This document shows, in pieces, positions 8,846 to 61,132 of a stretch of 64,000 nt of DNA; the stretch's first letter is position 1, and every line of letters starts with the position of its first letter. Made by a program: the position numbers and the translations under genes. Location: positions 21,993,256-22,057,255 of the forward strand of contig NC_089850.1 in assembly GCF_036373705.1 (NCBI RefSeq). The letters are read 5' to 3'. Origin of the DNA: Amia ocellicauda (lineage: Eukaryota > Chordata > Actinopteri > Amiiformes > Amiidae). The notes under the pieces were generated by a model. That model ran no database searches. It was not told where the DNA came from and saw only the letters and a program-made list of their open reading frames with translations.

Positions 8846-11800
8846 AAACGGAGCCTATAGTGATGACAGGAGTGGTTTGCTTTATGCAGAGCAGCATTTA
8901 CTGTGAAGCTTTGTGTGTCCACTTTGCTTCCAGTGGAGAATGGCAATCGGAGCAGCCCAGGAGTTCATGTGATGACTGTGGTGCGTGTGCTGGTGCGCCA
9001 GTGGCCCCTGGAGAGCGACCCCGTGGTGGAGCTACTCGTCTTCAATGAAGAAGTGATAGAGGTGGAAGGAACACAGGTGAACTACATTCTGCAATTTTTG
9101 GAGATGGGGACTAAAATCATGTGCATGTTCTTGGTGACCACATGCTAATACACCATATTTTCCCTCTGTCTGATCATAGTTATGCCCTTTTAATCTTTAC
9201 ATGAAACTAAAATAAACTTCCAGGCTGTAAGTATTTTACTTTTGTGTTTATCAGATTCACCAAGTCAGGTGTATTACATTTGTATCCATTTGTGTTCACT
9301 TTGGTTTGATATACATAAGCTGAGTAGACAGCGATGCATCCATTTACTGGAAGTCATTGAATGGCTCCTTGTTGCACACACAACAACATTTTAAGTGCAT
9401 GATCGCTGATGTGTGAACTTGAACAAATCATACTATACTTTAATCACTGATAACAGTTTCTTTTTTTTAGGTGCAACAACCAGACATGTATGAAGTGAAT
9501 ATATTGATGAACAAAGATTTCCAGAAGCTCAGGCAGTCCACCTACTCTTACCCTATGACGGAGAGCATGCTGTACAGCATTCCTAGAGAAAATGACATTG
9601 TCGTCACGGATCCCAACCTTCTGGGAAAAGGTACCAACAACATTAAATTTTTAGACCTCTTTGTCTTAGTGGTTCAGTGTGAGTCATCAGTGATTAACCC
9701 TTCTGATCACAGTCAGTATTTTACTCCACAGTAATGGGAGTTGAGTCAGATTTTCAGATTTGAACACAGGCTTCCTTTAATTTTACTTGAATGATTCTAT
9801 GGTTTTATGAGAATCTCTCCCACATACATAATGCTGGAGGGGTGGCAATTGGCGCTGTGAATCTAACCTCAATCTCCTACATCACAGCCACGCATGCTAC
9901 CACCTGGCCAATAGTATCTATGTGCTTCATGAACCAACTCCAATCTTGTGTATGTTGTTGTATATATGTATGTAGGTTCGTTATTTTGACTGCTTTAAAC
10001 ATTCCTCTCAGTGTATGATCATGGCCCTCTTCAAACAACAAGCCACTACCCTCTAAAGCAAGCGGAGACCACAGTGGAGGAAACGGCTGCCCCAGGCAAG
10101 CTGCCCGAGACTCCCCTCCGAATGGACCCGGTCTCCTTCTACGATGAAGAAACTACAGCTGACGAAGAGGGGCTTCCTGACAAACTGCTCCCTGAGACTC
10201 CCCTGCGATCGGAATCGCTGTCTTCTTACAACGTGAGCAGTCTTACAGTAGACTCTTGTGTGCCTAGAAAATACGTTAATTTAGTTTATAAGTTAGACCA
10301 CCTGTGATGCATACACTCCACTATGTTTAGTGTTAGTCTGTCTGTATGTATATTTCAAACCAGACGCATACAAATACTTTACACTTTGAGAACAAGATTT
10401 GAAAAAATAATAATAATAATAAAAAAAAATTTTTTTACAATGCATTTCTTTTTCATACATAGATAATATAGTCTTGACTTTTCATTCAAGGCAATGTGTC
10501 AATGGGTGAAGAAGCTGAGAGACCGCCTTCGACGCTTTTGGAGTGAATCTCTGCCCTTATTCTTCCTGGTGATGTGGGTGGTGGTGGTGGGTGTTGTTGG
10601 CTCGGCTGTAATCGTCAAGATCCTTGACGTGCTCTTCCCATCCTGTGAGCACAAGTAAGTATTCCCACACCAGACGCCTGGCACTGGTTCTTTCTGTCAT
10701 TATTATTATTATTATTTATTTATTAGTGGATCCAGGGTGTCTTACAGATAAAACAAGAAACATTTTAAAGCATTATAGAAATGCAGTACAATTCAATCAG
10801 TACACAATACAATAAGCATATAAAAGTGCCTATTCTACTCATTAATGCATTATAAAATCCTCGGTGACTTATACCCCCACATAAATAATGACTTCTCACA
10901 GTCAGATTAAACCTAAATTTGATATATTGGTCTTGTACCACTAGAATGCAAGAGATCTTCAAGATAAATGAAGTGTCAAAAGTACAGTGCATCCGGAAAG
11001 TACTCACAGCGCTTCACTTTTTCCACATTTTGTTGTGTTACAGCCTTATTCCAAAATGGATTAAATTTAGTATTTTCCTCAAAACAAAAAAAGCACATGT
11101 ACATAAGTATTCACAGCCTTTGCTCAATACTTTGTTGAAGCACCTTTGGCACCAATTACAGCCTCAAGTCTTTTTGACTATGATGCTACAAGCTTGGCAC
11201 ACCTATTTTTGGGCAGTTTCTCCCATTCTTCTTTGCAGGACCTCTCATGCTCCATCAGGTTGGATGGGGAGTGTCGGTGCACAGCCACTTTCAGATCTCT
11301 CCAGAGATGTTCAATCGGGTTCAAGTCTGGGCTCTGGCTGGGCCACTCAAGGACATTCACAGAGCTGTCCTGTAGCCACTCCTTTGTTATCTTGGCTGTG
11401 TGCTTAGGGTCGTTGTCCTTTTAGAAGATGAACCTTCGCCCCAGTCTGAGGTCCAGAGCGCTCTGGAGCAGGTTTTCATCAAGGATGTCTCTGTAAATTG
11501 CTGCATTCATCTTTCCCTCCATCCTGACTAGTCTCCCAGTTCCTGCCGCTGAAAAACATCCCCACAGCATGATGCTGCCACCGCCATGCTTCACTGTAGG
11601 GATGGTATTGGCCAGGTGATGAGCGGTGCCTGGTTTCCTCCAGACATGACGCTTGCCATTCAGGCCAAAGAGTTCAATATTTGTTTCATCAGACCAGAGA
11701 ATTTTGTTTCTCATGGTCTGAGAGTCCTTCAGGTGCTTTTGGCAAACTCCAGGCAGCTGTCATGTGCCTTTTACTGAGGAGTGGCTTCCATCTGGCCACT

Positions 11801-12773
11801 ATCATACAGGCCTGATTGCTGGAGTGCTGCAGACATGGTTGTTCTTCTGGAAGGTTCTCTTCTCTCCACAGAGACATGCTGGAGCTCTGTCAGAGTGACC
11901 ATCGGGTTCTTGCTCACCTCCCTGACTAAGGCCCTTCTCCCCCGATCACTCAGTTTGGCCAGGTGGCCAGCTCTAGGAAGAGTCCTGGTGGTTCTAAACT
12001 TCTTCCATTTACGGATGATGGAGGCCACTGTGCTCATTGGGACCTTCAATGCTGCAGACATTTCTCTGTACTCTTCCCCATATCTGTGCTTCTATACAAT
12101 CCTGTCTCGGAGGTCTACAGACAATTCCTTGGACTTCATGGCTTGGTTTGTGCTGTAGGACCTTATATAGACAGGTGTGTGCCTTTCCAAATCATGTCCA
12201 ATCAACTGAATTTACACAGGTGGACTCCAATCAAGTTGTAGAAACATCTCAAGGATGATCAGTGGAAACAGGATGCACCTGAGCTCAATTTTGAGTGTCA
12301 TGGCAAAGGCTGTGAATACATGTGCTTTTTTTGTTTTTTATTTTTAATAAATTTTCTAAGATTTCAAACAAACGTCTTTCACGTTGTCATTATGGGGTAT
12401 TGTTTGTAGACTTTTGAGGAAAATAATGAATTTAATCCATTTTGGAATAAGGCAGTAACATAACAAAATGTCGAAAAAGTGAAGCGCTGTGAATACTTTC
12501 TGGATGCACTGTAGGTGCTTATTCACTGCTGAATTTGTGTGCATTTTCTTGGGTTGGCATTTATATTGCTACTTAATGATAGCCATCGTTTCTAAAAATA
12601 TATTTGTTAAAGAGCTGTATTTGTATTCGATTGTATGAAAACTAATGTAAAATGTTCTATTTTGAAGGGGGATCTTAAGACTGGACCCTGTTGCAATGAT
12701 GCCAGAGGAGGCAAAACATTCCCTTTTGGAACACATGGAGGTAGAAATACAGGAAGAGCAAAATAATCCATGA
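5086..12773 (+). CDS. ginm1: Glycoprotein integral membrane protein 1
   Basis: Type I membrane glycoprotein of poorly known function. Coding exons: 5086-5190, 6433-6492, 7706-7805, 8934-9076, 9471-9630, 10012-10232, 10491-10654 and 12668-12773. All are GT-AG and in phase, giving 352 residues. The first exon encodes a leucine-rich signal peptide (about residues 1-26). The ectodomain has N-glycosylation sequons (NVT, NIS). One transmembrane helix spans about 284-305 ([20 protein letters not shown]), followed by a short cytosolic tail starting KGILRLDP, which matches the human tail. The start was placed at 5086 because it begins the signal peptide; in-frame ATGs at 5044 and 5047 would add 14 residues. 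The LPETPLR motif, single in human as I recall it, occurs twice here (220-226 and 249-255). The last intron holds a decayed Tc1 element. Confidence 0.94.
6834..6878. repeat. (TG)n microsatellite
   Basis: About 22 tandem TG units in GINM1 intron 2. A simple dinucleotide repeat, likely length-variable. Confidence 0.95.
8812..8840. repeat. Poly(A) tract
   Basis: A run of about 29 A residues in GINM1 intron 3, about 95 bp before exon 4. It could be the tail of an old retroposon on the plus strand, but no element body is recognisable upstream. Confidence 0.8.
10698..10750 (-). repeat. Possible L2-like LINE/SINE 3' tail fragment
   Basis: ATT-rich repeats (10698-10725) are followed by TAGTGGATCCAGGGTGTCTTAC. 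In reverse complement this resembles the GTAAGTCACCCTGGATAAGG tail at about 46240. Only the extreme 3' end is present, with several mismatches, so the assignment is tentative. Confidence 0.35.
10983..12513 (-). mobile_element. Decayed full-length Tc1-like transposon in ginm1 intron 7
   Basis: Element of about 1531 bp bounded by TA and by long inverted repeats (about 80 bp). The left end starts TACAGTGCATCCGGAAAGTA (10983), and the right end, closing at 12513, is its near complement ending TCTGGATGCACTGTA. The subterminal TTCACTTTTTCCACATTTTG and TTCCAAAATGGATTAAAT blocks recur inverted at the other end. It lies wholly in the intron between the exon coding the transmembrane segment and the last exon, on the strand opposite to GINM1. 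Confidence 0.93.
11178..12061 (-). pseudogene. Broken Tc1 transposase
   Basis: Three separate minus-strand frames carry transposase pieces in the right order. The first (12061-11771) has the N-terminal DNA-binding part with [19 protein letters not shown]. The second (11714-11421) has the first catalytic aspartate, [14 protein letters not shown], and [18 protein letters not shown]. The third (11360-11178) has [15 protein letters not shown], with the catalytic glutamate. The segment with the second aspartate (QDNDPKH type) falls in the gap between frames two and three and is disrupted. Frame changes and stops mean it cannot make an intact transposase. It belongs to a different Tc1 family from the element at 55.8 kb, judging by its ends. 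Confidence 0.92.
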
Positions 12774-42406: not shown

Positions 42407-45400
42407 ATGTCTAGTGCCAGTGACGTAGCTCCCTCTGTACTGGAAGTTGTCAGTGTTGTGGGCAAAGCGGTTTGCGCAGGCGCGGCACTGACTGCCGCTC
42501 TCTACCTGATCCGCAGAGTGTGTTTAATGATGGCCTGGAAATCAGGAGGAGCCAGCCATGCCGAGCTCGTCAACAACCTCCGCAGTAAGTTCCCTACAGA
42601 GGGGCTCATATCCTAACTGCCAGCGCCGGAGCGGCCTCCCCTGCAAGGCCTGAGAGCAGATGCGTGCGCGGTCGTGCCGGGGACGGGGGTCCGGGAGGGA
42701 GGCAGAGACCGCGGAGATGCGGGGCGAAAAACGCAACTTCTCACTGGAAACAAAGGGGCGTGTCTGCCCTCAGAGACGGCGTATCTGCGGTTGCTTTTGT
42801 GCGGAACATGGTGCTTTCTTTAGAAAATATGAGTTACAGAAAGTGTTACAGTTTGTGACGCAACCTTAAAACACTGACCGCCAGTTCGCTCGCAAGCGTG
42901 CACGTATCGGACGACGTTGCTTTCAATGTAAAGGGCGTCTGTTTAGTTCTTGCATGATGGTGTAGACCTGTGTTTTTGCACGGAGCTGCAATGTCTGGAT
43001 GTTGTCAGACGGTTTGAGTCGAGCCAGCGTTGCGTGCCGTGCCAGGCCAGGCGTGCCCGGGATGTCGCTTCATGCCCGCACTTTCCTCGATGCGGACGAC
43101 ACACGGCAGTAAGCTATACTATGTATGACGAAGCAGTAATGTTATCTGGGTTATTTCGGTGCTAGAATGCATGAAGTGTGTATCATTTTGGCTAAAGCAA
43201 ACCGCCCTGGGGGTGGTGGGGGGCAGGGGCACCACTGTGCCAACAGCGCAACACACGTCGTTTGCCCACTTTACAGATATTGATTAGACGACATGGTTAT
43301 ACCTTTAAATAAAACCACCACCTCAGACTTAGCAATGTTTTACACTCGCACAACATTTAATCACGGCCATAAAACAGTTCTTAAAAATATTACATCTACA
43401 AATGTTTGCTTAATATCTGATGTTTTGTTTAGTTCATGAACAACGTATTCCTGTATAGATTTTGTAGACTGTATATATTTTTTATTGCTATGTCATTCAT
43501 GATACAGTACCTTTATTGACCTATTCTACCTTGATGTAAAACAATGCAAAGTTATTCTTTCTCTCATATAAAAGAAAAGCCTAATCCCACAACAAACGAC
43601 ATGCAGAACTACAGTGTTGCCTTTGAATAGCAAGTATGTAGAAGTACTTTAAAAATGTGCTTGTGTTGTAATTTGTCAGCAATGTCAGATAGCTCTGGTG
43701 CTAAAGCAATACCAGCATTAACGTGGATTTAAAGAATTATGTGTGCGTGTGGTATGCATAGCAAGTTAATTTAATATTATGTATTATACGAATATTACTT
43801 TCTTTTTTTTTTCTTTTCTTTTTTTTTTAACTGGAGGCATTTTCAAAACTGCTGCTCAATATGACATGTATTGAGTAATGCAGTAGCTTATTTTGCCTTA
43901 TTGAAATTATAGATGGTCACAGTCCACAACAAACCCAACACTTAATGTAATACAGTGGAAGTCATTATTCAGACTCCTTCATTTTCCCTTCCAGGAAAGA
44001 TCCCAGAACGTTACTGAACAACAGAGTATTATACTAAGCAAAGTTAGAACTGCTAAGCAAAATATATGATTTAAAAGAAAATGTAATTTGTTAAAAAAAA
44101 TTGTGATCTGTAAAAAGAGACATCAGCAGAAACCCATAATAGCACAGATTGTTTTTTATTCAAGCTTGTGTATTTGTATCCAGTACGTAAGTTAAATCCT
44201 TTTTGGTTTTGCCTTTTTAATTAAATATATAAGCAAACAAATGTAAAATATACACTGTAGTCTGAAAACTGTGTTTCACTTTGTTGTGCTATCTGATGAT
44301 AGTGTCATCTGCCCCACCCCTCTGCAGTAGCTGTTAGGTGCAGCAGCCTCTGGACATAGAAGGGCTTCAGTATCAGCCAGTTCTCTATATTAAGTCTAGA
44401 GCAGCATGCAACTCATACCTCGGGGCTCCATGTCACATTTGGCTGCTAATCTTTAGTTGGCTATATTTATATGAGTATTACAGCAATGTCTTGCACTCTT
44501 TTTTCATGAGCATTTGCTTTCAAATGAAGTCAATCATTAGACCCCATTTTAACTGATTTTTTTAAACAGATCAAAAAGAAGTAGGGAAAATTTGAAGCTA
44601 AACCGATGTGTTAAGATGGTACTTCTGCAGAATGTGTTTGTTTAAAAAAAAAAAAAAAAAAATGTTGAAATACAGTTGTCTGAACTAATTAATGAAAGAC
44701 ATTGGACTGTGGCTGCACACAGACACTGATTTTCCACTGAGCATGATGTCATTTAGTGAGGCTTTGAACATGAACAATTATTCAGAAAAGGATTGCCAAC
44801 GCACTGCAGGTAGTGGTTTTGCCTGTGAAAAACCTGAAGGTTTGATACTGGGGTCTAAAATGGCACATGAACAGTGGAATTCTGTTGAAAAACTTTCTCT
44901 CTTTCTCTCCATCTCTTTCCAGAAAATGGGATCATTAAATCAGATAAGGTTTTTGAAGTCATGTTGTCTACAGACCGAGCACACTTCGCAAAATGTAACC
45001 CTTACATGGATTCCCCTCAGTCAATAGGTAAATAAGTTTTAGAAAATAAAAATGATACATTTGTCTTTTAAGTTTTGTATTTTAATGTATTAACGGTGGT
45101 GGTGATTCTTTAATTAAAATTGTTTAATTGTGTTTCTAAATGAAAGCACAAATAACAAGCTACATTATGTAAACCAATTTTTACCAGCAAACTCTCCTTA
45201 GATAAGACTGATTAACACTGTGTTCTCTGCATACAGAGGAGAGTTTTGTTGCATTACCCTGTCAACTTCATAAGGGCATTTTGTTTGTTTCAATACCTTA
45301 TTACACTAATAATAAATAAATACAAATATATTAAAAAAATAATAATACAAAAATGAAATGCATAATTAGGAGGAATGATACATTTGCTGTTTGAAATTCA

Positions 45401-47000
45401 GTCAAGGATATAGCACAATTAACTAAATTCTGTTGTGGCATTTGCAGTAGTATAGAATATATATGATATAGTATAGAATATAGCCTATTTGTTTTCAGTG
45501 CAAACAATTGAACACTTTTTGCAAATAATATTGGCTTGTTTTGACATTTATTAATTATAATGTCATTATAATGCAATTATAATGTCGTGTAATAATAATA
45601 AATATACATATAATAGACAGAATCGCTTACAGGCTGTTGTATTTTTGGTATTTGGGCATTATTTACAAGAACAATAATTCAGTATTTCTTTGTTTACAGG
45701 TTACCAAGCAACTATCAGTGCTCCTCACATGGTAAGCTTTAAGAATCACTATTTAGAAATAGATTATTTGTCAGGTTTCTAGCTTATTAAAATGAAAATG
45801 CAAGGCTAACAAATTAAATAAGTGGTCATAGGTGACCTTTCACAATGCTGGTATTGTTGGTAACTTGGGGGGGCTTGGACAGTGTTTAGGCAATAGAAGG
45901 TCAACAGGTACCCCACCTAACCACAGTCCAGTACACCCCGTATTTATCTCCTGTAAGATATCACTTCACAGCATTTTATCATGCTTCTTGCATTACTAAT
46001 ACTCGTATTATTGGTTGTTTGTCTCCTTGCTCCCTTTCCCGTAGCCCTTGACTGTGACCCAACGTCTTGACAGCATTTAGCTTTTACTGTCCAGGATGTA
46101 TGACCTCACTTACTGTACTTACCTGTGTAAACTGGAAGTTGTAAAATGTATTATATTTTGAATTGCTCTGTTTAATGTAAATTTGAATTTCTAATGTTTG
46201 GTGCCTTGTACTGAACTGTATTATTGCACTTTGTATTGCACTTGTGTTGTAAGTCACCCTGGATAAGGGCGTCTGCCAAGAAATAAAAATAAATAAATAA
46301 TAATAATTATTATTAATTTAAATTCAACTTAAATGAGGAACTGCAGGCTTTGCCTCCCAATGACAACTACTTCTCTCTTTTGCTTCAGCACTATATTTAT
46401 CTTTACTGGAATGTAAAAAAATATATTTTAAAAATTCTGGATTAAAATGATTTTGTTCTGCATAGTAAATGTTATTTGCAAAGACTGCATTTGGTGTGAG
46501 TGAGTGTAGTTTGTGTTGGGCGGCTCAAGCTGCTTCACTGGTGTGGATGAAATGGAGATAATGCCAGCAGTCTGTTTGTCTATTCTAGCATGCGTACGCT
46601 CTGGAGCTTCTCCACGATCAGCTGCATGAAGGAGCCAAAGCTCTAGATGTTGGATCGGGAAGTGGAATCCTCTCGGTCTGCTTTGCTCGGATGGTGAGTC
46701 AGCATTTTAAACGTTTTAGATTTTTTTTTTTTTTTTCACACCACCATTCTTTTAGCTGTTTCGTTTTTGAAATGTGAAAGATCACATTTCTATCTCAATA
46801 TTTAAATACATGTCTAGAAAAGATTTTCTAATATTAAAAGATTTCTCCTCATAACTTGGGCCATTTTTAAATATCATATTTTTACTTTAACTTTATTTTC
46901 TGAATAAATATATAGTTGACGCATCAGTTTTGAAATCACATTTGTGAGCAGTGTTTTTTTTACTCTCTTATAATTGGTTATTGCTGATTATTATTATTAT

Positions 47001-47031
<31 letters not shown>

Positions 47032-50000
47032 TTTTTTTTTTTAATTATTTCTTGGCAGACGCCCTTATCCAGGGTGACTTACAACACAAGTGCAATTACA
47101 TCATAACATTTACTTTATGAAGGGTAGACCCCTACTCTTTTAGCATGTTAGATAACAGATTAAACAAATATTAGTCACCATTTTTATGGTTGACCAAGCA
47201 TTTTTGTTCTTCTAGTCTGAGACTAGAGATTGCTTAGAGTCTGATTTGTGACACAAATCATCATCATGCTTGACCAGATTGATCTTGTTTACATTGTGGT
47301 GGGTGTTTGTGCATTCTTAATACGTTCAAGTGAAATCTGAGTGGGATTCTGAAAACATTGTGCAGTGGAGTGTAGGAGAAAAAGTTGGCAAGTGTACAAC
47401 AGCAGACTGCATTGGGTTTCCACATCGAAAACAGACCAATCATTTATTACCACGTTGCATCTTTTGTGCAGGTGGGTCCCAAGGGAAAAGTCATAGGAAT
47501 TGACCACATTAAGGAGCTTGTAGATGATTCGATAAACAATGTAAAGAAAGATGACCCTACATTGATAACATCTGGAAGAGTAAAACTGGTTGGTAAGTAA
47601 GTGTAGTTTTTATTACCTATGACCATCATTTTTTAATTGTTGTTTGTATTAAAGTCACTCTTAATATGATTTTCCAGTGAAGAATCTTATGTGTTTAAAA
47701 GTAGAGCTGGTTATCCCAGATATAAATCAAACTAAAACCTGCATTTTTCTAAAATTCTTTGACAAAACAATATTAAAGGGTCAAATCAGACCTAAAATAA
47801 TACAGATAATTCGTTGTTCTTGGTAGCATTATCACAGCAGCATTTTCAGGAGTTTGTGTCACCATTTGCTGATTGTATGTAGTACAATACTTTTTATTGT
47901 AGTAGTATCAGTAAACATTATGACAAGGCTTTTATTGATAGTACTGGAAATGCTAGTTTGCATTACATGATTTCTAACGTGTAGAACAAAATTGATATAT
48001 CTTTAGTTTTATTCATGTCTTCCTTATTTGATTGTTATAGTATTCATAATTAATATTAAGATAAATTGTACAGATTTTGTTTATGTTGTTTTGTTTTATT
48101 ATGGGAGTTCTGGAGTCCTTAATCAGAGCTGTGATCAAACCAACTGCAGCTAATGAACAATTTACATCTCTGTGCTGCTAAGCATCTGATCACAGTAATT
48201 TTTTTCCAAAACCATGAATCACAGTCCTACGCAAATGTGATCTTTGCACGGTTTCCCACTTTGCGAACATGAAAAATAGGATCATGTCTTCTAATAATGA
48301 CTGTATAGCAGTGGTAAGGAGTGGTTGTAACCACAGAGGAATAAAATCCCAGCTGAAACACTGTTGTTGTATACTAAAAGGATGGTCATCACAGTTTCTA
48401 AAATGATTGGTTTATATAAATATGTCCTCATGTGTTGGTAGGAGTTTATAAGTAAAGTATTTGTTTTTCGGTTTAATTTGATCATATTAGTAACTTTTTA
48501 CACTTACAATTGTAACCCTGACCAAAATCATGGTGGCTTTGTAAAATGTGCTTTGAGCTTTCAGGATATAACATTTCATCACTTAAAGGATAGCCAAGAA
48601 AACAAGAGCACGGGATATCTTTTCCATGGCAATTCAGTGTGCCTTAATGTCGGACAATAATAATAATAAGTGTATTGCAGTGATTGAAAATGGATGGATG
48701 GATGGATGGTAATACAAATATTTAAATAATAGTAGTAGTGAAATACTGTTTCTTCATCATTTGTCTTTAGAAATTTGCACCCCAAACTTGGGACTAATTA
48801 AAATAATACATGAATTACTAATCAGAACATCATCTCTATCCCTAAGGGGTCTGTAGAAAAACGAAAATAAAATACGTAATTAAATGCACAATTCCAGTTT
48901 GGGGTTTCTCAGAAGATACGTTACCAGCTAGATGATTGTTGTGTTTGAAAGGCTGATACGGTATTGTGCTTATATTACAGTAGGCGACGGCCGAATGGGA
49001 TTCCCAGAGGAAGCCCCGTATGATGCCATTCATGTGGGGGCGGCCGCACCAAATGTCCCACAAGCAGTAAGTTCTTCAGCACATTTACATTTACAGGACT
49101 ATTTTTATGACTTCTAGATCAACCTGTATTCCTCCTCTGTATTCCTGTGATAAAAGTTCACTCTGCAGCATAGAAGAAAACAGTTCTGTGATATGACTGA
49201 CTTAGTACTGGTGGCAGTGAATAGTGTGGTTGTTTCCTCTGCCTCAGCTCCTTGACCAGTTGAAGCCAGGCGGGCGGCTCATCCTTCCAGTGGGCCCAGC
49301 TGGGGGAAACCAGATGCTGGAGCAGTACGATAAGCTGGAAGATGGCAGCACCAAAATGAAGCCTCTTATGGGGGTGATATACGTGCCTTTAACAGACAAA
49401 GACAAGCAGTGGTCCAGGTGGAAGTGACTTACTACTCAATCTTACTTCTTCTTCCGAAAGTCACACAGGTGAAATGGTGTGGAGTGGAGCAGACAATTGA
49501 TCACAAGGGCTGTGTTTGCTGCTTGTCATCATTCTTTGCTACCCCATACCATGGCAACTGGCTGCACTTTTGAACTGAACTAAGTGCACATAAGACCCCA
49601 AAACACATACATCAGTCAATTACTTGCTTAACCTAACTAACAGATCTAGGTTTTATTTTTAGTTCTTTAACTTTTGTTGTTCTCCTTCAACTGATTCGAA
49701 TTGATTTTGTGGTGCCTTTTTACCAAACTTTTTAGTTTCTTACCATATTTAAATTATTCATATTTTCTCAATGCTATATAGGTATTATCATTCTGTTACC
49801 TCTCAAATGGGAAAGGAAATCAAAATCCAATTATGCAAAATGTTGTGTGTGTTTTTTGGGGTGAAATTGTCACTATTGACACTAAATCTGTGGTTTGGCT
49901 TGGATTGGTTGAGATGGTCGTGCACTAACAGTAATGCTGGAGGAAAGCGTTAGGGAAGTTTTTCGTTCAAGCCTTCGATTTTCTCTCTTCCTTCAGCCTG

Positions 50001-53975: not shown

Positions 53976-56900
53976 CTACAGGTACATGCCGTTGATCAGG
54001 TAATCGGACTCCTCGGAGGTGATCGGCCGGGCTTTCTTCAGCTTTTGCCGGACCAGGCGCAGGCGACAGGCCACCATGAGCAGCAGCAGGGCAGTGATGG
54101 CCAGGCCCAGCGCGAGAGGCAACACAGCTCCTAGTGCAAACACACATTGGGGTAGAGGTCGTTCCATGACATCACTGACACCAATCTGGACTTGTTGGCA
54201 TGAACAGGATAGAATAGCTGTGTTATAAAAGCTAGGCGTTGGACTTTTACAGAACATGGGATTTTCTCTTATAAAACACCACACCAATGGGCTGGTATTA
54301 ATAAGCTTTAGAAACCTATGTTCTAGAAAAATGTAAAGCAAGACGGAAGCAACCTGAGATTAAAAAAATGTCTAGTCATAGGTAGGGTGTTGTGTTTTTC
54401 TTGTCTTTGAAACTGAATTGTAGTTGTTATCCTTCAGGCAACATTGAAGCAATTCACGGTAACTAATCTAAGAAACAACTGGGAAATCAACAGAAGCTGT
54501 AATTAATTAGAAAATAAGTCATATATATATTGGTGCATTTTAATTAATTGTTCCATTTAATGAAAATCAAACAGAAAGCTTGTACTCTACCTATAAAGCT
54601 GCACCTGAGAAATATATTAATACATATGGAGCACTGGCTCAAAAGGTCACAATGAAAAGTTACTGAAAAATGAATTACTACAAGCTGGATCATTGTAAAA
54701 AATATAATCATCATGGAACCTGTGTTCAAGACTTAATAACCCCAATGCTCTGTGCATTATTGTTATGGTTAAGTCACAAAAAAGCACCATTATAATAATA
54801 ATAATAATAATAGCTGGGTTATGATACAAATTCAATATCTAACTAAAATGAACTGGACATTTTCTTTAATGAAAAGAAGCGGCACTTGAGAGCTCCATTG
54901 CTCTATTAACCTATGAGCAAATGCACGTCATTTGTAGTAATACAATGACTAATTGAGATGATTAAGGTAAGGTAATGTGATAATTGTTCAATAAGTGGCT
55001 GAAACACAGGTTATAAATCCCAATTTTACAGCACTCTAATGGACCAGACAGCAATTTCCTGTTTAAACTATTGCTATGTTCTTTCTTTGCATGTATTGGC
55101 TTGGTATTCACATGCAAAGAACATTTGTTTATGTATACTAATGTCTTTATATAGTTAATGTAAGAATGATATATCAAAAGACATGCCAAACCTGACTCTG
55201 GAACGGGGTGTCCACCTGTGGCATGGTGGGGTTTGGACAAGGGGTCACCTTCACCTTGGTCCTCTGCAGTTTCTGCTCGAGCAGTGTTAGCTATTAGCAG
55301 GAGAGATGCTTTTTAAAAAAAAGGTTAAATAAATAACCACATCTAAATTATTAAACTACTTCTATCTTATATTCAGATATAAAGTGACAAAAAGAAAAAC
55401 TGAATAAAGATTATATTAAAATGTGTTTCATTAATAATTTAAACCCAAGACTGAGAACAGAATTTCATACATAAAAAATATATATATTTTAAACCGTGTT
55501 AGACAGTACCCTTGCAAATCCCTTTATATTAACATACTAAATTATTAGAGTCTTCCTTTTTCTGTATCCATGAACTTACGAGACTCAGATCTTGTTGTAG
55601 AGGAAGGGTCAGTGATGTTCTTTGGCATGGCTGTACCTAAAATGAAAACAAACACAGCGATTTCTTTGTATCCCCTTTTACATTATTTTAAATGTATTAT
55701 TGTTGATTTCACACTTACCGGAACCTTTGTTCCTTTACAGTACTCCGATTTGTATTTTAATCTAATATATATAATTAATAACAATCTAATATATATATAC
55801 ACATTGAGGGAAAAAAGTATCTGATCCCCTGCTGATTTTGTACGTTTGCCCACTGACAAAGAAATGATCAGTCTATCATTTTAATGGTAGGTGTATTTTA
55901 ACAGTGAGAGACAGAATAACAACAAACAAATCCAGAAAAATGCATTTCAAAAAAGTTATAAATTGTTTTGCATGTTAATGAGGGAAATAAGTATTTGATC
56001 CCCTATCAATCAGCAAGATTTCTGGCTCCCAGGTGTCTTTTATACAGGTAACGAGCTGAGATTAGGAGCACTCTCTTAAAGGGAGTGCTCCTAATCTCAG
56101 CTCGTTACCTGTATAAAAGACACCTGTCCACAGAAGCAATCAGTCAATCAGATTCCAAACTCTCCACCATGGCCAAGACCAAAGAGCTGTCCAAGGATGT
56201 CAGGGACAAGATTGTAGACCTACACAAGGCTGGAATGGGCTACAAGACCATCGCCAAGCAGCTTGGTGAGAAGGTGACAACAGTCGGTGCGATTATTCGC
56301 AAATGGAAGAAACACAAAATAACTGTCAGTCTCCCTCGGTCTGGGGCTCCATGCAAGATCTCACCTCGTGGAGTTTCAATGATCATGAGAACGGTGAGGA
56401 ATCAGCCCAGAACTACACGGGAGGATCTTGTTAATGATCTCAATGCAGCTGGGACCATAGTCACCAAGAAAACAATTGGTAACACACTACGCCGTGAAGG
56501 ACTGAAATCCTGCAAGGTCCCCCTGCTCAAGAAAGCACATGTACAGGCCTGTCTGAAGTTTGCCAATGAACATCTGAATGATTCAGAGGAGAACTGGGTG
56601 AAAGTGTTGTGGTCAGATGAGACCAAATTCGAGCTCTTTGGCATCAACTCAACTCACCATGTTTGGAGGAGGAGGAATGACCCCAAGAACACTATCCCCA
56701 CCGTCAAACATGGAGGTGGAAACATTATGCTTTGGGGGTGTTTTTCTGCTAAGGGGACAGGACAACTGCACCGCATCAAAGGGACGATGGACGGGGCCAT
56801 GTACTGTCAAATCTTGGGTGAGAACCTCCTTCCCTCAGCCAGGGCATTGAAAATGGGTCGTGGATGGGTATTCCAGCATGACAATGACCCAAAACACACA

Positions 56901-59900
56901 GCCAAGGCAACAAAGGAGTGGCTCAAGAAGCAGCACATTAAGGTCCTGGAGTGGCCTAGCCAGTCTCCACACCTTAATCCCATAGAAAATCTGTGGAGGG
57001 AGCTGAAGGTTCGAGTTGCCAAACGTCAGCCTCGAAACCTTAATGACTTGGAGAGGATCTGCAAAGAGGAGTGGGACAAAATCCCTCCTGAGATGTGTGC
57101 AAACCTGGTGGCCAACTACAAGAAACGTCTGACCTCTGTGATTGCCAACAAGGGTTTTGCCACCAAGTACTAAGTCGAAGGGGTCAAATACTTATTTCCC
57201 TCATTAACATGCAAATCAATTTTTAACTTTTTTGAAATGTGTTTTTCTGGATTTTTTTGTTGTTATTCTGTCTCTCACTGTTAAAATACACCTACCATTA
57301 AAATTATAGACTGATCATTTCTTTGTCAGTGGGCAAACGTACAAAATCAGCAGGGGATCAGATACTTTTTTCCCTCACTGTATATATACATACACCTAAG
57401 ACCTAAGATGGGACAGAGTCACCTTTCAGCAGGACAGCAGAGCAATGACCCCAAGCACACAGCCAAAGCAACACAGGAGTGGCTTTAAAACAACAAAAGT
57501 GAATGTCCTAGAGTGGCCCAGTCAAAGCCCAGACTTCGACAGAATCTAACAGAGCTTGAACATTGCACAATCCAGATGTGCAGAACTGACAGAGGCTGAC
57601 CCCAAGACCCACAGCTGTAATTGCTGCCAAAAGTGGTTCTACCAAGTATTGACTGGTGAATACTTGTCTAACAAATGTTTTTTGTTTTATGTTTTTCCAT
57701 TAACTGTTGTTTCACCATAAAATGTGTCTTGCCTCTTCAAAGTGTTGAGTAGGTTTTGAAAATCAGGGCAAAATATACATTTAAATGCATCAAAATGTCA
57801 GGTTGTAAAACAACAAAATGTATAAAAGTACATTTTACAGAATATAAGAATACAAATATATAAATTTAGTCAAATTCATGCAGAGTTGTTATTTAGCAGT
57901 TAAGCTATGTTATTTTAATAGTTGTGCCTTTACAAATAATCCTCATCTGTGGTAGCAAATAAAATAAACAAAATTGCAGTTAGGCAGAGCACAGGTAAGG
58001 TAAGTTGTGTATTTCATAAGGCTAGGGACCTGTACTTAGGACAGCTGCATAAAAAGCCAAGGGGGACTGATTCATATAATAACATTTTCTGCAGAAAATA
58101 TTGATTTACAAATGTTAAATCAGACTGTAGACCCCCCCCCCCAATAATCAGTTTTCATATACTGAGATACTGAGATAGATTACAAAGGGCAGAAACAACA
58201 GAATAAAAGAGCTCTCACACCTTGTTTTCTTATACATTCATTGATACAGTCTGTCTCCTGCAAGAAATTGTTCCCATTTCCTTTGCAGCCTCCATAGATG
58301 AAATGCTTGCAAATTCCAGCGGCCTCGTCAAAGTACCAGCGTGGGAAGAGGCCTTTGCACGGCCCAACAGCAGGAGGTGCCAAACAGTTGTCTGCAGACA
58401 TAAACATGACTTCAGCCTCTACAGGGACACAGATCTCTGTTTGGTGTCATTATGTCTAAATATGAAAAAGCAAACAGATCCATCTCATTCAAATTGGAGG
58501 ATCAGATAGCTAAAAACAAACAGGCACTGTTTTTAACCCTGCCCCCCCCTCCTTTCAGCAAGGCTCAGTATTTGTTTTTATGTGTTCCACCCCAGAGAGC
58601 CGCACACAGGCCAGCACAAAGGAGGTGGTCAGGTGAACCATACTTGTATCACCTATTAAACAGGATCCTTTTGTGTGAAACCCTCTTCAGTATCTGCATT
58701 TTCCCTGTTATCTTGCAGGCGTGTTCACTTCATTTCACAGCATTACATCAGCCTTGAGGGTCTCAATCTGATCTTATATGAAAATGTATAAAAATGAAAT
58801 TTGCTGAACAGATACAAAATTATTAACATAATCATGCCAGCTTAGCCTTCAATTTTCTTCCTTCAGGACAGAAGTCAATTCCCTTAACATATAAATAACA
58901 TGTTATTTAATTTAAAATAGATTTAATGCTTCCCATACTTCAGAAAATGTGACTCATAACTGAAACACATTCTTTGGTCTTCTATCTTTTATGAAAATAA
59001 TGAATAAAATCTCAATATGCTTTCAGTGAAAACAGCACAATGAAACAACTGATTGCTGCTTGACAGAGTATAAGAATAAAAATGCTGTCTCTACAATGAC
59101 ACTATTTTATACTGGGCAAGCAGGTTTTCGGTGCTTCCCAGTATCAATGCTGTGGCTAGACTACAAGGAATGCAGCTATTGTTTACTGAGTTACTGTTCA
59201 TAATCTTTACTGAGTTACTGTTCATAATCTATGTTAAACAGATGTGAGGGAATTTAACATTATAGAAACCAGACTGAAACTATGAAATAAAAAAACACCT
59301 ATGTGATTTATATTTTGTTCTTAGTGTTGTTATTTATGATCATGTTGTTGTCCATATTTTCACAAGCATCTGCTATGTAATTGTTATTTTGGTTTTACTT
59401 TCAACCAATAGAACAGTGGTTTTCCACCATGGTCCTGGGTGCCCACTGCTGGCTAACAAGGACAGCAATACTAGTTTCACACATACAGAACTGTAGTTTT
59501 CCTTTAACAACAGTGACACCTCACACCTGCTATGTATGTCTTTGAGGACACCCCCACGACTGCAGTACCTGAGATGTGTCTGCCTCCCTCGGTCTGCCCA
59601 TGAGGCAGGGGGAGGCTCTCTCCTCTGTCATAGGAATGGATGGGCGTCTTCAGCTCCACCATGGTCTTCTTGGCTTCGCCAAGCAACATCACCCTGTCCT
59701 CTCCATCCTCAGTGTGGGCCTCAATCCTCAGCTGGCTGGGGACGCCCGAAGAGTGAGTGACAGCTTTACGACTCCCGTCAACTGGAGGATCGAGAGCTAA
59801 ATTAGAGGAGCAGTTTGCATGCACACTAAATCTTATGAAAAAAATATGATTCTGTCTTCTGTTCACATAAGTTAATAAAATATTCAATTATTTTAATCAC

Positions 59901-61132
59901 AAATGTTTGGGCAAGGCTTTTCTAACAAGGAAGAAAAGCAAAAAACAAAGCAAGGGAAGGACACAGTAACATTTCTTTTGACTGGCATTGCACACTATGC
60001 AGGAGCAGTACTCACAGCTTTGGCAGAAGGCTTCGTCAGACCTATCTGGACATTGCTGTTTCCCGTCGCACGCATATGTAATGTCAATACAACAGCCGTC
60101 GTCGCACATGAACTGGTATCGGGAGCAGTGGCCTGTACAGACTGCAGATAGTGGAAACGTTTGTTGCTGTAGTGCTTGTTTACTTTTACACAAATGGGTA
60201 TCTTACAGAGCACAGTTCAGTTTTAGATTTTTTGAATATAGACTTAAAGACGGCATCCTCCAGAATCACTCCCATTCTACAGTAATAAACGAATTCCTCG
60301 CCTTACCAGCTTCATTTAACAGTGAATAAGGCATGAGCTCTTGCTCCTTGGAACATTATTTAATTGTATATATTTTTCCCCATCAAGATAGAGCAGAGTG
60401 CATCAGTATGAAGGCATTATTAAAACTAATAAATACATATTTAATCTAAAAGCATTTTTAAGATGAACGCTGCTTTACAACTTTTTAATATTTTGAAGGG
60501 GACATATTTTTATTTTTATTTCAAACATACTAGCAGCCAACCTGTACACAGACAAAGATAAGCATGTATCATGTATCTAACCATATGGTTTTTTTTGGAG
60601 ATGGAGAATGAAACAGTATTTACATTTCTAAAAGCCATCTGTTCACTTCAGCATATTTATTATCACAGAGAAAAGTTAGGCACAGAAAACGAAGGACAGC
60701 AATACAAAGAGAGATATATGCAAAAGAGATATATAAACAAAGATATTTATAAAACAAATGTTTTGCAGGTCTCGGAGGTGTAATATTTATTGAATTAGAT
60801 TAATGCAAGCTCAACTTAATTTAATCAAAACAAAATAACCAATAAATACATAAATGCCTACGTGAAACTTTTTTTTTTTTTTATCAGTCACTGCGATTTT
60901 GTGTGAAATGTAATGAAAGGATCCTCACGGATGTTTCTGATGTTGTGTATTTCAGAGGGATGTTAAATTACAGGGAGAAAGGCATCGTACCTTCTGCTTG
61001 GTGCTCAGGTGCAATAACAGTGACAGTGACATTGTCTGAACTCTTCTGCCCGTCCGTATCAGTGACAGTCATCTGGAAAAGGTAAGTTCCCTCCTGTAGA
61101 CCACTCAGCTTCAGAACCCCAGGCTGGGTAAC
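53976..61132 (-). CDS. lrp11: LDL receptor-related protein 11, 3' seven exons, partial
   Basis: Type I membrane protein with extracellular modules, of poorly defined function. Exons in transcript order: 60991-61132, 60016-60141, 59569-59796, 58221-58391, 55580-55636, 55192-55290 and 53976-54130. All are in phase. They encode the second half of a PKD domain ([20 protein letters not shown]), an LDLa module ([16 protein letters not shown] ... [10 protein letters not shown]), a linker, a complete Kunitz domain, a Thr/Ser/Pro-rich stalk, one transmembrane helix ([20 protein letters not shown]) and a tail ending [11 protein letters not shown]. The tail is nearly identical to human LRP11, which secures the identity. 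The signal peptide, MANSC domain and start of the PKD domain lie beyond the right edge. The intron between the Kunitz exon and the next carries Tc1 elements. Confidence 0.93.
56030..56126. repeat. Near-perfect hairpin upstream of the Tc1 transposase
   Basis: Two arms of about 47 bp, starting CAGGTGTCTTTTATACAGGT and mirrored at 56080-56126, with one visible mismatch and almost no loop. It lies between the inner direct repeat and the transposase start. The right arm ends about 43 bp before the ATG and includes TATAAAA. Confidence 0.93.
56169..57173 (+). CDS. Tc1-family DD34E transposase, complete open frame
   Basis: Cut-and-paste transposase of 334 residues. The start at 56169 ([10 protein letters not shown]) has a CCACCATGG Kozak context and is the family start. 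The longer frame from 56085 reads through the hairpin and is not favoured. An N-terminal paired helix-turn-helix region includes [14 protein letters not shown] and a GRPR-like SLPRSGAP. The catalytic triad is complete: D150 ([11 protein letters not shown]), D238 (FQHDNDPKH) and E273 (LNPIENLW), with 34 residues between the last two. The [19 protein letters not shown] block is present. One departure from the common family form is His in SQSPHLNP, where Asp is usual. No stop or frameshift is seen, so it may be recently active. Confidence 0.93.
57400..57830 (+). pseudogene. Degenerate 3' half of an older Tc1-like element
   Basis: The stretch retains fragments equivalent to [14 protein letters not shown] and [10 protein letters not shown], separated by frame changes and stops. 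It ends with GTCAGGTTGTAAAACAACAA, similar to a Tc1 terminal repeat of another family. It lies directly after the intact element but shows no matching left half on the other side. Confidence 0.75.
59182..59229. repeat. Two-copy 24 bp tandem repeat
   Basis: Unit TTTACTGAGTTACTGTTCAT plus AATC, present twice without gap, in the LRP11 intron between the Kunitz exon and the linker exon. Confidence 0.95.

Follow-up and report, generated by a model that had tools for sequence, protein, structure and literature searches.

Gene content of the LRP11 locus

The window analysed here is a 64,000-nucleotide stretch of the Amia ocellicauda genome (C1:21993256-22057255), of which 988 Mb in 385 contigs were searched. 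From the right end of the window down to position 53976, the minus strand is occupied by the 3' portion of a gene with several exons, which a sequence-only reading had named LRP11. The order of the corresponding block at human 6q25 is, as we presume, PPIL4-GINM1-KATNA1-LATS1-NUP43-PCMT1-LRP11. The fish window contained a KATNA1 MIT domain (PF21126), a protein kinase frame at the place of LATS1 and a WD40 frame at the place of NUP43, the latter two names being our assumption from position. PCMT1 was located at 42530-49424 of the plus strand by tblastn with a human query. PPIL4 and GINM1 were recognised only by eye in open reading frames, and Pfam searches of four frames from that stretch gave no match. 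These neighbours, together with the domain order MANSC-PKD-LDLa-transmembrane helix (TM), which is the order expected for LRP11, bear out the earlier naming: judged by synteny with the human block in the order that we assume, the gene is LRP11.

The first two coding exons fall beyond the window, one encoding the MANSC domain (C1:22061042-22060442) and the next encoding the N-terminal half of the PKD domain (C1:22059235-22059078; 158 bp, phase 1-0). Within the window, and all on the minus strand, are the exon for the C-terminal half of PKD at 60991..61132 (142 bp, phase 0 to 1; PF22352, E = 3.3e-11), the LDLa exon at 60016..60141 (126 bp, phase 1-1; PF00057, E = 9.6e-8), a linker exon of 76 codons without a Pfam match at 59569..59796 (phase 1-1), and a Kunitz exon at 58221..58391 (171 bp, phase 1-1), delimited by PF00014, splice sites and genome comparison. 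These are followed by two stalk exons, one at 55580..55636 (19 codons, phase 1-1, with an NIT sequon) and one at 55192..55290 (phase 1-1, with an alternative acceptor possible further upstream), and by the last coding exon at 53976..54190, which encodes a hydrophobic helix and a short tail ending in DYLINGMYL, stop included. The weakest scored junction of the gene was the last-exon acceptor, at percentile 53.

With a start codon picked by eye, the assembled protein has 598 aa in the order MANSC-PKD-LDLa-Kunitz-stalk-TM. Pfam searches of the 598 aa returned MANEC at 69-158 (E = 3.5e-27), PKD at 210-292 (2e-23), LDLa at 305-340 (1.3e-7) and Kunitz at 421-471 (6.2e-18). The Kunitz domain is followed by the stalk and then by one hydrophobic helix, recognised by eye; the last Kunitz cysteine lies about 70 residues ahead of the helix, and 14 of 67 counted residues were Ser or Thr and 9 of 67 Pro. 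The core LDL receptor family is described by its LDLa clusters, EGF-like modules and YWTD propeller modules (PMC8469001). Fish LRP11 has a single LDLa, and neither EGF nor YWTD modules were matched in it at E up to 0.001; by its modules it falls outside that core family. In two papers the name LRP11 has been applied to SorLA.

A genome search with the LRP11 protein, in which 117 of 130 candidates were scored, gave six matches that are the gene's own exons and elsewhere just Kunitz and LDLa-type matches. Among the same scored candidates no second LRP11 copy was found, and the linker and tail matched at their own locus only. Scans of viral contigs and genome contigs returned no vertebrate LRP11.

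Transposon sequences were also observed in the window. The intron after the Kunitz exon contains a Tc1/Sleeping Beauty-type transposon at 55790-57392, with 213-nt inverted repeats that are 95% complementary and a plus-strand open frame of 373 codons from stop to stop at 56052-57173 (PF25787, PF01498 and PF13358). A near-perfect inverted repeat at 56030-56126, with 48-nt arms 1 nt apart, overlaps the 5' end of this frame. Broken pieces of a Tc1-like transposase were seen by eye in the list of open reading frames at 11421-12091 on the minus strand.

The Kunitz exon and its domain

The acceptor AG of the Kunitz exon reads tgtttatgtctgcag followed by ACAA, and the donor GT reads AAG followed by gtgtgaga. 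The reading frame enters as G/AC AAC TGT, with the slash at the splice junction, and the exon encodes 57 residues. Both flanking junctions (59569-58391 and 58221-55636) are phase 1. Splice sites were scored by a simple scheme with general consensus frequencies against every minus-strand AG or GT in the window, which placed the acceptor at percentile 96.5 (AG, n = 3938) and the donor at percentile 98.7 (GT, n = 3689).

Searched alone, the exon matched Kunitz_BPTI (PF00014; cut-off 21 bits) with E = 1.4e-19 and 70.5 bits over profile positions 2-52 of 53. Its six cysteines are spaced 8-15-7-12-3, and the reactive loop GPC-K-GL presents a basic P1 Lys after the second cysteine, with Gly at P1' and Pro at P3. 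Of the functional positions of the Kunitz fold, in BPTI numbering, the LRP11 domain retains Gly12, the P1 Lys, Gly16, Phe33, Tyr35, Gly36-Gly37 and Asn43 as well as all six cysteines. Among the 35 Kunitz matches of the genome it ranked 13th, at 70.9 bits and free of internal stops, indicating a typical Kunitz domain rather than a borderline match.

At the level of sequence, these results confirm a real exon with a complete Kunitz domain. The boundaries, cysteine spacing, phases and P1 Lys given in the sequence-only reading were all recovered from splice sites, in-frame translation and the profile match. Its argument that this is no chance frame likewise held, that explanation being excluded by the profile E-value, the six cysteines, the good splice sites and the phase 1 fit at both junctions. 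A pseudogene relic in this fish is unsupported, since the Kunitz exon and the other assembled exons are all open. We infer that the exon is included in the mature mRNA.

Kunitz-like sequences were met elsewhere in the course of these searches. A protein of 336 residues from Thermodesulfobacterium hveragerdense (L003, 4149-5159), found through the common peptide VGPCKGLF, itself a search pattern, combines ankyrin repeats with a Kunitz domain at its C terminus (PF00014, E = 2.7e-7); a like match in T. thermophilum (L004) is known from the match only. For a thermophilic bacterium, the presence of a Kunitz domain seems unusual. Two further matches are not Kunitz domains: L001, on a viral contig, is a short stretch of like letters, and L005 was also discarded.

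Kinship with HAI-1 in exon structure and domain order

MANEC exceeded its threshold at two places in the genome, LRP11 and a gene on C27 (11 candidates scored; domains split by introns could escape this search). Because the C27 gene also carries PKD, Kunitz, LDLa and Kunitz domains in the order of HAI-1, we named it SPINT1. Its exons for the N-terminal PKD half, C-terminal PKD half, LDLa, first Kunitz domain (KD1) and second Kunitz domain (KD2) measure 158, 142, 126, 171 and 171 bp, the LDLa value assuming the acceptor nearest the first cysteine, with another AG further upstream. The corresponding LRP11 exons have these same lengths (158, 142, 126 and 171 bp for its single Kunitz exon), and the phases are also equal in the two genes: 1-0 and 0-1 for the PKD halves and 1-1 for both LDLa and Kunitz. 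Equality of all four exon kinds in length and phase is difficult to account for without common descent; it strengthens the case for kinship with HAI-1 and points to LRP11 as a sister of this inhibitor.

The sequence-only reading had also seen an HAI-1-like domain order, which was found in part. The LDLa-Kunitz-TM portion corresponds, with the one LRP11 Kunitz domain occupying the KD2 slot after LDLa. HAI-1, however, is ordered PKD-KD1-LDLa-KD2, and a six-frame search of the LRP11 locus gave one Kunitz match and none in the KD1 slot between PKD and LDLa. LRP11 thus lacks the two Kunitz domains flanking LDLa that mark HAI-1 proper. Homologous MANSC, PKD-like, LDLa and Kunitz domains are all present, and these place it in the HAI-1 (SPINT1) family taken in a wide sense.

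Kinship with HAI-1 in sequence

The LRP11 ectodomain was compared with 177,635 distinct PDB sequences, giving 82 matches at E up to 1e-10. Among the best 60 of these 82, which were inspected, the top match was human HAI-1 (5h7v; 219 bits, E = 9.6e-64), aligned over all four domain types with 61.5 bits for MANSC, 41.7 for PKD, 30.4 for LDLa, 66.7 for KD1 and 39.5 for KD2. Although the LRP11 Kunitz domain sits in the KD2 position, its sequence is nearer to KD1: the exon alone gave 67.0 bits with KD1 of 5h7v and 45.4 with KD2; an entry consisting of KD1 by itself reached 73.2, and among the best 60 of 125 matches no single-domain entry from a different protein exceeded 59.7 bits. The list for the exon alone was headed by the three-domain snail inhibitor SmCI at 134.5 bits summed over its domains (best domain 58.7), versus 108.6 for HAI-1; identity over 51 residues was 30/51 with HAI-1 KD1 and 29/51 with SmCI domain 3.

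For the whole PKD domain, the single KIAA0319L domain 2yrl scored 50.1 bits, against 41.7 for human HAI-1, so that LRP11 is kin to the KIAA0319L family too. LDLa matched HAI-1 with 33.8 bits over 41 residues, similar in size to matches with single LDLR-type domains. Within the fish genome, the nearest match of the LRP11 Kunitz domain was SPINT1 KD1 (55.2 bits), and four other Kunitz domains came within 7 bits of it, with a higher identity within the aligned stretch (both results from the 117 of 130 candidates that were scored). The similarities to SmCI and KIAA0319L weaken the argument from sequence alone. With the whole-ectodomain similarity and the shared exon lengths and phases taken together, and less firmly the domain tree described below, the shared ancestry with HAI-1 proposed earlier is upheld, and the best reading of LRP11 is as a paralogue of HAI-1/SPINT1.

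Placement of the Kunitz domain among HAI-type domains

A tree was built from 34 of the 35 genome Kunitz matches and four human HAI domains, two of them from HAI-2, over 51-53 columns; SmCI domain 3 was left out of the larger trees. With few columns and long branches, the LRP11 domain fell into a set supported at 95/95 with SPINT1 KD1, three SPINT2-like domains from C5, human HAI-1 KD1 and the two HAI-2 domains, with HAI-1 KD2 outside. When the two HAI-2 rows were omitted, support for the set became 92/88, LRP11 paired weakly with SPINT1 KD1 (84/46) and no starred set included LRP11. AU tests on these 51-53 columns gave p = 0.31 for LRP11 with KD2, 0.60 with KD1, 0.35 with SPINT2 and 0.10 for HAI-1 KD1 with KD2, and none was rejected. 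As placement with KD1, KD2 or SPINT2 is tolerated by the AU test, our claim is limited to the "HAI type", and, less firmly than the kinship of the whole protein, the LRP11 domain appears to group with HAI-type domains (SPINT1 KD1 and SPINT2-like). A 13-row Kunitz tree resolved no grouping. A candidate HAI signature, the PRW motif, was abandoned once it was seen in APP/APLP2-type and other domains of the same genome as well.

Two observations were made on other Kunitz domains of the genome. The SPINT2-like gene at G000:C5:12895204-12901664 has three Kunitz exons versus two in human HAI-2, and the domains at G000:C8:41816931-41817086 and C4:29319236-29319388 both lack the second and fourth cysteines, a paired disulfide loss.

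Proposed function

Trypsin-like enzymes are suited by Lys at P1. We read LRP11 as a type I membrane protein (MANSC-PKD-LDLa-Kunitz-stalk-TM) and an HAI-1 paralogue, whose Kunitz domain is most likely a canonical tight-binding inhibitor; we put the probability of this reading at roughly 0.6. The P1 Lys loop GPC-K-GL would enter, in the manner of a substrate, the S1 pocket of a trypsin-like serine protease near the membrane, and a shed ectodomain may inhibit likewise. Human LRP11 has been listed among the type I proteins in the medium conditioned by HEK and HeLa cells (PMC2793532), which makes a shed soluble form plausible.

The exon may instead be a cassette, spliced in only in some tissues, so that an inhibitor and a plain receptor form would coexist. 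At 171 bp and phase 1-1 it could be skipped cleanly, its omission removing exactly 57 residues from the assembled protein, and the tissue-dependent KPI domain of APP is a precedent (PMC5331069). Among the scored LRP11 junctions, however, the Kunitz donor was the best and the acceptor the second best, which suits constitutive use, and we regard the cassette as a doubtful alternative, though one to be kept in mind. The Kunitz domain may also be present yet non-inhibitory, serving as a spacer or binding module; Kunitz domains without inhibitory activity are known from other proteins. HAI-1 itself has a weak domain in the same slot: KD2 is described as acting on trypsin and as largely inactive on matriptase and HGFA, the main HAI-1 targets, which HAI-1 inhibits chiefly via KD1 under restraint by its other domains (PMC12940448). 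Retention in LRP11 of the six cysteines and of every functional position named above argues against such a loss of activity; a non-inhibitory module is unlikely, and the residues point to the Kunitz domain of fish LRP11 as a likely working inhibitor, with a membrane-near trypsin-like protease as its presumed target.

Human LRP11 and the history of the domain

Human LRP11, which we take to be 500 residues long, presumably has no Kunitz domain, as the earlier reading had it. This agrees with two figure legends, rather than with a sequence: Figure 1 of PMC8469001, on the human LDLR family, names MANEC, PKD and LDLRA, but not Kunitz, as domains in the drawing, and the Figure 1 legend of PMC11772764 has a similar list, also without Kunitz. 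A search of the latter's text for BPTI gave no hit, and it is absent from the papers in which LRP11 and Kunitz occur together; its family tree covers gar, fugu, coelacanths, lungfish, newts, frog, turtle, chicken, mouse and human, with LRP11 outside most other members. In a table of PMC7693530, the row for the worm gene F32D8.7 lists AMBP, LRP11 and SPINT1, apparently as human counterparts, in weak agreement with a Kunitz-bearing ancestor of LRP11 and HAI-1.

If human LRP11 indeed lacks the domain, the simplest history would be that the common ancestor of LRP11 and HAI-1 had a Kunitz domain after LDLa and that the exon was lost on the way to humans; the loss in mammals, like its timing, is something we infer from the comparison. 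Local gain, in which exon shuffling within this fish lineage would have given LRP11 an HAI-type Kunitz exon that mammalian LRP11 never possessed, could draw on the ease with which phase 1-1 Kunitz exons shuffle, on trees and AU tests that leave the source of the domain unfixed and on the Tc1-like element with an open frame in the next intron, but it is improbable, because HAI-1 has a Kunitz domain in the same slot with an equal exon length, the other modules are common to both proteins and the LRP11 domain belongs to the HAI type; ancestral presence therefore calls for fewer events, and the worm row also speaks against local gain.

On the reading of ancestral presence and loss, LRP11 would be a third vertebrate HAI-type membrane inhibitor, disarmed toward mammals by the loss of one exon; the human protein would be a misfiled former inhibitor, and fish LRP11 would restrain pericellular proteases beside HAI-1 and HAI-2. 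To this wider proposal we give slightly less than even odds. Human LRP11 is currently discussed as a relative of the lipoprotein receptors. Should LRP11 prove to be a paralogue of HAI-1, research on pericellular proteolysis ought to consider its MANSC-PKD-LDLa body alongside HAI-1; the use of fish LRP11 as a model of the human protein would compare proteins that differ by a whole inhibitor domain, and the exon loss would be a clean case of functional change by one exon. The Kunitz domain of fish LRP11 is probably already visible in automatic database annotation, and no discussion of it was found in the open-licence literature searched. The parts are all of known kinds; the combination of LRP11 with an HAI-type inhibitor domain is new within that literature.

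Comparison with known systems

Human LRP11 is the orthologue by synteny, in the human order that we assume, and is drawn without the Kunitz domain that the fish protein carries beside the same MANEC, PKD and LDLRA modules. APP and APLP2 resemble LRP11 as type I membrane proteins with a Kunitz module that can be present or absent, but they are unrelated to LRP11, and their Kunitz domains lie outside the HAI set in the trees. KIAA0319L has a MANSC domain and several PKD domains and is not known to have LDLa or Kunitz, and its PKD is closer to that of LRP11 than the PKD of HAI-1 is. HAI-2/SPINT2 is membrane-anchored and contributes HAI-type Kunitz domains to the tree set of LRP11, and is described as having neither MANEC nor LDLRA (PMC12940448). 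HAI-1/SPINT1 has in common with LRP11 the MANSC, PKD-like, LDLa and Kunitz domains and a single TM; it differs in having Arg at P1 of human KD1, where fish LRP11 has Lys, and the 76-codon linker exon ahead of the Kunitz domain is a feature of LRP11.
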